Source: Microcaldota archaeon (GTDB lineage Archaea > Micrarchaeota > Micrarchaeia > Anstonellales > Bilamarchaeaceae). Taken from it: a stretch of DNA of 42,430 bases. This document shows, one piece after another, positions 4,683-36,075 of this stretch. The stretch is from contig JAHJDH010000024.1 of assembly GCA_018812625.1 (NCBI GenBank), forward strand, positions 1 to 42,430, written 5' to 3'. The notes under the pieces were generated by a model. It made no database searches, was not told the origin of the DNA, and worked only from the letters and a program-made list of their open reading frames with translations. How positions within the stretch are numbered: the first letter of the stretch is position 1; the number at the start of each line of letters is the position of its first letter. The translations under genes and the position numbers were made by a program.

Positions 4683-6434
4683 ATGACAAACATCAACAAG
4701 GCAGTAAGTTTGACTTCTTATCTTATTACCCTTCCAAAATCCCGATATATTGTTGCAGGAATAATAGCTCTTAGTCTGGTTTTTGGAATTTTACTGAACC
4801 TGGAAAAACCCATTGAACAAGCTGCTGCAAACGGGCTGATGGTTTTAGCTCTTCCGGCTCTCATCTCATCACTTGTAGTAAAAATTCTTATTCGGAAAAT
4901 GCCATATCGAAGAATAGCTGCAACTGCTCTTGGAGGAGAGATTGTCTATTCAATTGCCTATGGAATCAGTTTCCTGCTTGTTGGAGTAAATCCACTTTGG
5001 GCTCAATTAGTGATACTTGTTGGCTCTGCTCTTGTTTTTGTTTTATGGTATGTTATTGCGAGATTTGTCTTTATTCTGAAATACAGGTCAATTCTCTTTG
5101 CAATGATCCAGCTTTTGTTCTACTTGTTTTTCCTTGGAAGCAATCATGGTCTTTATTTTGCAGGTGAGCCGTTTATCGATCTTGCAGCCAAGTTCTACAT
5201 ATCCTCATTCGTTCTTCTTGGTGCAATTGCCTTGTTTTTCTTTATTATAAATGCTCCGATGAAAAAGAACTTTGGAATAAGAAGTACTGATGCCCTGTCT
5301 TATTTCTTTGGCCAGTGGCTCTATAATAATAAGGACATGGAAAAAGCGTTTATGCAAGTTGGAGAGCCGGTAAAAACACTGGTTTCTCTAATGGCATTTA
5401 AGAGGAAAAAAGACACTATTTTCTTTGTTACTCCATATGTTCATTTTGGTCCGTTTGGGAACCTTGGCGGAAGTGAATTTTCGCATCTTATCACAAAAGC
5501 AATGGATGAAAAATACAACTCAAGCACATTTGTTTTCCATGGAACTGTAACTCATGATCTAAACCCTGTTTCAACTTCGGAAATGGATAAAATTCTAACA
5601 CTAGTTGACAGCTCTCTAAAATCAGCAGTCTATAAAGATGCAAAAGTTTCTATTTCAACTGGTTCAATGAAAGAATGCCAGGCACAGGCTCTTCGGGTAA
5701 ACAATTCCTCAATGATAAGTCTCTCAAGAGCGCCAGAGCTCACAGAAGATATCAATTTTGGCCTTGGCCTTTCTTTGATGTTTGAAGCTCAAAAGCATGT
5801 AGAAGATGCAATGATAGTAGATCAGCACAATTCTGAGACTGGGGATATTACGAGCTTTGAGCCTGGAAGCCTGGTTGGGTTTGGCTATCTGAATGCCCTT
5901 AAGAATTCTTTAGCAGTTAAAGACTCGAAAAAACCTCTCAAAATCGGAGTTGCAACCAGGAAAATTGATTCTGAAGTTATTGGTGGCGCTGGAATCCGCG
6001 TTGCAGTATTTTCATCTTCTCCGGAATATGTGATTGTTCTAATTGATTCCAATGGAGTTACTCCGAATTTTAAAAATCAAATAGATAAAGAAGTGAAAAA
6101 AATTGGCAAATCCCTTGGAAGGGAATTTATTGTCGGAGTCTTTACTACTGATACTCACCAGACTAATATGGTCAAGGGAGTACTGAACCCTCTTGATACT
6201 GAGAAGTCTCTTATTCTTGCTATTAACAGCGCATGCAAGGAAGCAATTGAGGATATGCAAAGTGCAAAATTCTTCTCAGATACAGAGTGGCTTGATATTA
6301 ATGTTATTGGAGCAAAACAGTCTATTGAGCTTATTTCGACAGTCAATTCAATAGTTGCTGTTGCAAAAATTACCCTGCCGCTTATTTTGCTTGGTGCAAT
6401 TCTGCTTCTGATTGCAATTGCAACCAAGCTGTAG
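4683..6434 (+). CDS. DUF2070 family membrane protein
   Basis: Multi-TM N-terminus, large soluble domain (PYVHFGPFGNLGGSEFSHLI, VFHGTVTHDLNPVS), C-terminal TM; characteristic archaeal DUF2070 layout. Confidence 0.85.
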   Translation: MTNINKAVSLTSYLITLPKSRYIVAGIIALSLVFGILLNLEKPIEQAAANGLMVLALPALISSLVVKILIRKMPYRRIAATALGGEIVYSIAYGISFLLVGVNPLWAQLVILVGSALVFVLWYVIARFVFILKYRSILFAMIQLLFYLFFLGSNHGLYFAGEPFIDLAAKFYISSFVLLGAIALFFFIINAPMKKNFGIRSTDALSYFFGQWLYNNKDMEKAFMQVGEPVKTLVSLMAFKRKKDTIFFVTPYVHFGPFGNLGGSEFSHLITKAMDEKYNSSTFVFHGTVTHDLNPVSTSEMDKILTLVDSSLKSAVYKDAKVSISTGSMKECQAQALRVNNSSMISLSRAPELTEDINFGLGLSLMFEAQKHVEDAMIVDQHNSETGDITSFEPGSLVGFGYLNALKNSLAVKDSKKPLKIGVATRKIDSEVIGGAGIRVAVFSSSPEYVIVLIDSNGVTPNFKNQIDKEVKKIGKSLGREFIVGVFTTDTHQTNMVKGVLNPLDTEKSLILAINSACKEAIEDMQSAKFFSDTEWLDINVIGAKQSIELISTVNSIVAVAKITLPLILLGAILLLIAIATKL

Positions 6435-35736: not shown

Positions 35737-35866
35737 CGGGCCCGGAGGGATTTGAACCCTCGACCTGCGGATTAAAAGTCCGTCGCTCTACCAAGTTGCT
35801 CTGTACCTTTAGTTAAACAGCATCTCAAGTAAGCTTTTTCAAAAGGTACATCTGAGCTACGGGCCC
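35737..35866 (-). tRNA. tRNA-Lys (anticodon TTT) with 56-nt intron at 35796-35851 (position 15/16, D-loop)
   Basis: Spliced: GGGCCCGTAGCTCAG^CTTGGTAGAGCGACGGACTTTTAATCCGCAGGTCGAGGGTTCAAATCCCTCCGGGCCCG. Junctions fit a BHB: GCTC/GAGC 4-bp helix, AGA and AAC 3-nt bulges, 9-bp intron helix TGTACCTTT/AAAGGTACA. Confidence 0.95.
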
Positions 35867-35930: not shown

Positions 35931-36075
35931 GCCGGGTTGGCAGATCGGTTATGCAGCCGCCTGCAGTTCGCTTTTCGAAGACATTTAATGTCGATGACGA
36001 GTATAAAGCGGCAGAGAGGGGTTCAAATCCTCAAAGATGTTTTATCTTATGGGAGAATATCTCCCTTACCCGGCT
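35931..36075 (+). tRNA. tRNA-Cys (anticodon GCA) with two introns: 35967-36006 (37/38) and 36027-36060 (58/59)
   Basis: Spliced: GCCGGGTTGGCAGATCGGTTATGCAGCCGCCTGCAG^AGCGGCAGAGAGGGGTTCAA^CTCCCTTACCCGGCT, 71 nt. Intron 2 fits a BHB (GTTC/GAAT helix, AAA and ATC bulges). Confidence 0.88.

Follow-up and report, generated by a model that had tools for sequence, protein, structure and literature searches.

A tRNA-Cys(GCA) gene with a canonical and a T-loop BHB-type intron in an intron-rich Micrarchaeota genome

The window, i.e. the whole stretch of 42,430 nucleotides that was analysed, carries on its forward strand a tRNA-Cys(GCA) gene of 145 nt (35931-36075) interrupted by two introns, next to a tRNA-Lys(TTT) gene (Table 1). 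An earlier note on this DNA had described introns of 40 nt at 37/38 and of 34 nt in the T-loop of tRNA-Cys, and three introns in the two adjacent genes. Both tRNA-Cys introns were confirmed base for base, and the single tRNA-Lys intron makes up the three. Exon 2 consists of A38, the 3' strand of the anticodon stem, a 4-nt variable region, the 5' strand of the T-stem and TTCAA, while exon 3 supplies CT, the T-stem strand CCCTT, the acceptor strand ACCCGGC and the discriminator T73. Removal of both introns returned a molecule of 71 nt with acceptor, anticodon and T-stems paired at 7/7, 5/5 and 5/5, respectively, thus restoring the fully paired acceptor and the TTCAACT T-loop that the note had proposed. 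The cloverleaf with its GCA anticodon, the T-loop of the form TTCRANY and the discriminator U73 identify a tRNA-Cys(GCA), and its two introns place it among the multi-intron tRNA genes (at least two introns).

Table 1. Coordinates of the two tRNA genes and their introns in the window.
Feature	Position	Strand	Description
tRNA-Cys(GCA) exon 1	35931..35966	+	tRNA positions 1-37; GCCGGGTTGGCAGATCGGTTATGCAGCCGCCTGCAG; 82 orthologs
tRNA-Cys intron 1	35967..36006	+	40 nt, canonical 37/38, relaxed BHB, central helix 3/4
tRNA-Cys exon 2	36007..36026	+	tRNA positions 38-58; AGCGGCAGAGAGGGGTTCAA; equal length in 82/82 orthologs
tRNA-Cys intron 2	36027..36060	+	34 nt, T-loop 58/59, BHB 11/11 pairs
tRNA-Cys exon 3	36061..36075	+	tRNA positions 59-73; CTCCCTTACCCGGCT
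tRNA-Lys(TTT) gene	35737..35866	-	divergent from tRNA-Cys, one D-loop intron
tRNA-Lys(TTT) D-loop intron	35796..35851	-	56 nt, strong BHB, central 4/4, inner 6/6

When every pair of BHB-bearing excisions was allowed to compete in a free search, the best parse had precisely the two tRNA-Cys cuts of Table 1. When the 5' exon was held fixed and the downstream sequence was shuffled, an equally good cloverleaf was obtained in 0 of 20,000 shuffles. Scanning of the whole window gave 25 placements of the same quality, all starting at 35935-36007 on the forward strand over the real site, and none on the reverse strand. The shuffle and whole-window tests exclude a chance origin of the parse.

Both introns show the arrangement of the BHB type, with a 4-bp helix lying between two 3-nt bulges where exon meets intron; in intron 1 the form is relaxed. 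The BHB-compatible fold previously proposed for intron 2 (GTTC/GAAT) was recovered with 4/4 central, 4/4 inner and 3/3 outer pairs, and was matched by 4 of 1000 intron shuffles. Intron 1, described earlier as a relaxed BHB with one mismatch in the central helix, forms 9 of 11 pairs with C32.U as the sole central mismatch, a quality reached by 37 of 1000 shuffles; the same mismatched helix pair recurs in several congeners. About eight placements of the 34-nt excision yield an equally good cloverleaf, so the position of intron 2 is fixed by the BHB alone, which is complete at 58/59 only (11/11 pairs against 7/11 in the next best register).

The start of intron 2 can form a decoy T-arm, GAGGG-GTTCAAA-TCCTC. 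The local minimum-energy fold, made up of this pseudo T-arm and hairpins, showed a value of -16.7 kcal/mol versus -11.6 kcal/mol for the BHB, thus favouring the decoy by 5.1 kcal/mol. In the molecule without intron 1 the two folds showed values of -42.6 and -35.7 kcal/mol (6.9 in favour of the decoy), while in G007, G008 and G015 the gap is only about 1 kcal/mol. Since plain folding favours the decoy, the models imply either that the enzyme has to capture or induce the T-loop BHB, or that a less stable form of the motif is what is used. The same fold could be taken to indicate another site for the second intron, with an intact T-arm reading TTCAAAT-CCTC and excision of the 34 nt at about 64/65, a placement that is among the several giving an equally good mature cloverleaf. 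However, no BHB is present at that site, where 0/4 central pairs form versus 4/4 at 58/59, and the long T-loop introns of G005, G010 and G004 break right after TTCAA, leaving no such alternative. An intron at 64/65 was rejected on the lack of the BHB and is considered very unlikely.

The exons were further examined among orthologs, using a degenerate pattern of the tRNA-Cys 5' half with one mismatch allowed. The pattern matched 88 of 118 related genomes and its backwards control none; matches to other tRNAs, chance matches and one match at a contig end were left out. All 82 genes that were fetched parse into the same three exons, with a mature length of 71 nt and a 4-nt variable region. The stem pairs are formed in 71-73 of the 73 distinct mature sequences, with many double changes, the one exception being column pair 13:22, which is G.A throughout. 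The T-arm is uninterrupted in 58 of the 82 genes, thus confirming the exons independently, and carries an intron of 13-212 nt in the other 24, the window gene among them. Natural intron-minus T-arms read AAGGG-TTCGACT-CCCTT in G003 and AGGGG-TTCAATT-CCTCT in G009.

ARAGORN found neither of the two window tRNAs, and the RF00005 model returned 15.9 bits on the tRNA-Cys gene against a gathering score of 29, a warning that standard finders miss intron-bearing tRNA genes of this kind. This failure would agree with a decayed pseudogene carrying two chance insertions, but every stem is intact, both introns bear BHB motifs, congeners have the same two intron sites and the gene is the sole tRNA-Cys found in the genome, which makes decay more improbable still than an intron at 64/65. 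The earlier note had named a second, uninterrupted tRNA-Cys as one finding that would overturn its reading; one Cys-pattern match was found in the genome, although, as the latter is about 85% complete, another tRNA-Cys could be missing. Least likely of all are group I or other self-splicing introns. Group I introns are reported from archaea (PMC6125680, which names Micrarchaeota too), but at 34 and 40 nt the two introns are much too small, and Rfam returned no catalytic intron, by model match or catalytic core, in the window or 20 related loci, so that this candidate was rejected.

The same genome encodes an epsilon-type EndA of 389 aa, residues 5-389 of which align to the ARMAN-2 EndA (4fz2/9w2k) with E=2.6e-131. 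Its catalytic residues Y233/H248/K279 stand where ARMAN-2 has Y236/H251/K282, and the Y157-K158 pair of the ARMAN-specific loop (ASL) stands where ARMAN-2 has Y160-K161, the ARMAN-2 residues being those named in passages of PMC12397907. A three-unit protomer of about 390 aa with the catalytic Y/H/K and the ASL Tyr-Lys marks the protein as an epsilon2-type enzyme; the broad-specificity splicing endonuclease on which the earlier note had made its reading depend is therefore present at full length. EndA matches (E<=0.001) occur in 114 of the 118 related genomes, and the named relatives are nearly all Candidatus Micrarchaeota MAGs; the host is a Micrarchaeota (ARMAN-like) MAG with a tiny genome. 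RtcB is also encoded (E=1.6e-167). A second EndA-like protein of 162 aa (P0002, L023:1450-1935, reverse strand, contig C26 of G000) was aligned to M. jannaschii EndA; the Lys region is kept, and Tyr and His of the catalytic set seem replaced (H and K). This protein is likely a structural, non-catalytic paralogue, and weak small homologs of it occur in several relatives.

The tRNA-Cys exons, the intron borders, the BHB motifs and the endonuclease and ligase genes can all be read directly in the DNA. In a Micrarchaeota archaeon, the window gene would then be the functional tRNA-Cys(GCA), its two BHB-type introns being cut by EndA at 37/38 and 58/59, a reading to which we assign a probability of roughly 0.93. 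According to the proposed mechanism, the primary transcript would be cut at both sites by the epsilon2-type endonuclease of the same genome, with EndA presumably capturing or reshaping the T-loop BHB despite the decoy T-arm, and the exons would be joined, probably by RtcB, to yield the 71-nt tRNA-Cys. Both the occurrence and the order of splicing are deduced here from sequence.

The tRNA set of the genome was surveyed with RF00005 at E<=10 and manual parsing, plus pattern searches, a procedure that may be incomplete; free two-intron parsing over-fits one-intron genes and was applied only where simpler parses failed. The tRNA-model survey returned 30 tRNA genes, Cys included, 21 with introns and six with two, for a total of 27 introns or 0.90 per gene. 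The two-intron genes are Phe (30/31 and 37/38), Arg-TCT, Thr-CGT and Glu-CTC (D-loop and 37/38), Lys-CTT (D-arm and 37/38) and Cys (37/38 and 58/59). Three extra genes were recovered through an intron motif, namely Val-CAC with D-loop and T-loop introns, Ile-GAT with two introns and Arg-GCG with one, bringing the totals to 24 intron-bearing and eight two-intron genes out of 33. The intron-rich tRNA set surmised in the earlier note is thus borne out, and introns outside 37/38, which it had suggested looking for, proved common: most lie in the D-loop, and a second T-loop case occurs in tRNA-Val(CAC) (L198, reverse strand, near 5694 of G000 contig C25). A strong internal check on the parsing was provided by the two tRNA-Lys genes, (TTT) and (CTT), since their introns are differently placed and their spliced products differ in the anticodon only. 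The tRNA-Glu(CTC) contig ends G000:C14:1-110 and G010:C30:1-110 (L143, L175) are 100% identical over 107 nt, and the EndA proteins of these two species are 79% identical; strong conservation, transfer or a binning/assembly artefact are possible explanations for the identical ends.

A repeated intron family, CTTTTAGGAAAAG, was found in the genus across isotypes and positions. It consists of a hairpin NNNCTTTT-NNN-AAAAGNNN followed by CAAAAC, i.e. a CTTTT-NNN-AAAAG hairpin with covarying flanks, and a second hairpin that mirrors the first is often present at the 3' end. Examples are L140, L143, L007, L137, L198, L199 and L200 in the genome itself and L168-L217 in congeners. With two mismatches, the pattern CTTTTAGGAAAAGNNNGNNCAAAAC gave 2-34 copies in 15 of 17 congeners, and its reversed control gave zero; with one mismatch, it matched 12 of 147 class members, of which eight belong to the genus, one to a sister genus (G017) and three are the distant genomes G129, G118 and G099. 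All four pairs next to CTTTT/AAAAG form in 66 of 74 copies, compared with 21% for swapped flanks, and double changes are numerous among them. An intact T-arm lies within 250 nt of 16 of 30 sampled copies versus 6 of 211 background windows, the remaining copies being mostly, as judged by eye, in tRNAs whose T-arm is interrupted or imperfect. Seven of the eight copies of the genome are located inside tRNA introns, both introns of tRNA-Val(CAC) belonging to the family, and the eighth begins a few nt after tRNA-Gly. At this last locus (L004, around 1574-1680; contig C23) the hairpin follows an intact tRNA-Gly(GCC) and precedes two more GTCGCATT-like tRNA 3' ends; it may represent an insertion that failed or went off target.

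Sequence similarity reaches about 80% over 137 nt between the copies in tRNA-Asp (L194) and tRNA-Glu (L208), which come from different species, and 95% over 166 nt between two copies of G014 whose host tRNAs are both Lys-like by their exons. The repetition suggests intron spreading. We tentatively propose, at slightly under even odds, that tRNA introns behave as a spreading element in the genus: the family would be copied into many isotypes at 37/38, the D-loop and the T-loop, the copies would gain host-pairing borders and become removable by the broad epsilon2 endonuclease, and the T-loop intron of tRNA-Cys would be among the outcomes. The family motif is absent from both window Cys introns, and the pattern has no match in contig C4. 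Rfam returned no such family among the 20 loci searched. A Y1 transposase (IS200/IS605 or RAYT-like) was considered as the mover and found unsupported, PF01797 being absent from the genome and present in 5 of 17 congeners. The intron-rich tRNA set and the repeated family are the part worth following up, being more striking than the single tRNA-Cys gene.

The orthologous series also bears on intron gain and loss. Within the genus, 13 of 15 tRNA-Cys genes carry the T-loop intron, the exceptions being G003 and G009. Since G009 is nested among carriers in the endonuclease tree, with support of 91/93 only, the intron was likely lost there; it was probably already in the genus ancestor and then lost at least once. 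Most T-loop carriers in the family of the window gene have a BHB at 58/59 that is perfect or nearly so. In family f14 and in G021 the counterpart lies one nt further, the BHB at 59/60 forming 9-10 pairs versus 4-7 at 58/59 in the former and 8 versus 5 in the latter; the very short T-loop introns of f14 (L125, L129-L132; 13-29 nt) fit 59/60. Because of this shifted counterpart, repeated and separate gains of T-loop introns are probable. At 37/38, several congeners (G001, G003, G004, G005, G009, G021) have an intron of the same type as window intron 1, sharing TTCGCTTTTCTGAG ... RATGA ... AGCATAA; CTGA stands opposite RATGA across the hairpin, with a kink-turn-like look, and no guide region was seen in the window intron or its orthologs. 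The CTTTTAGGAAAAG motif occupies this site in several congeners and is absent there in the window, so that different species have different introns at a single site. As the 82-member series includes cases in which the intron of a given site is there, missing, replaced by another or displaced by one nt, it allows gain and loss to be tested directly.

Multi-intron tRNAs are already listed for Micrarchaeota ARMAN-1 and ARMAN-2 in passages of PMC4033280, and the window tRNA-Cys is a new member of this group, with which it shares the phylum and an orthologous epsilon2-type EndA/VSEN (passages of PMC4033280, PMC6379350, PMC12397907). According to passages of PMC6379350 and PMC12397907, epsilon2 enzymes cut BHB and relaxed motifs alike, and ARMAN-2 pre-tRNA-Cys(GCA) is a tested, cleaved substrate; the passages of these three papers do not mention a 58/59 T-loop intron in tRNA-Cys. 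The earlier note had instead pointed to Thermoproteales as the group from which multi-intron tRNAs are best known. A parallel holds for intron density, which averages 0.84 per tRNA gene in that order and 0.21 in all archaea (PMC8450103) versus about 0.9 here, and for the occurrence of several BHB introns per gene at non-37/38 sites, but the parallel is unneeded, since the host belongs to Micrarchaeota, for which passages of PMC4033280 list such tRNAs already. Intron transposition has been described for Thermoproteales (PMC4090602), and the CTTTTAGGAAAAG family is likewise similar across isotypes and positions; however, the lineage is another one, the window Cys introns stand outside the family, and the likeness is drawn from the pattern of isotypes and positions. 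The tRNA set of this genome is among the most intron-crowded on record: Micrarchaeota tRNA disruption reaches the Thermoproteales level with a different endonuclease type, epsilon2 instead of (alpha beta)2, in keeping with the view that introns are able to accumulate where the endonuclease has a broad specificity.
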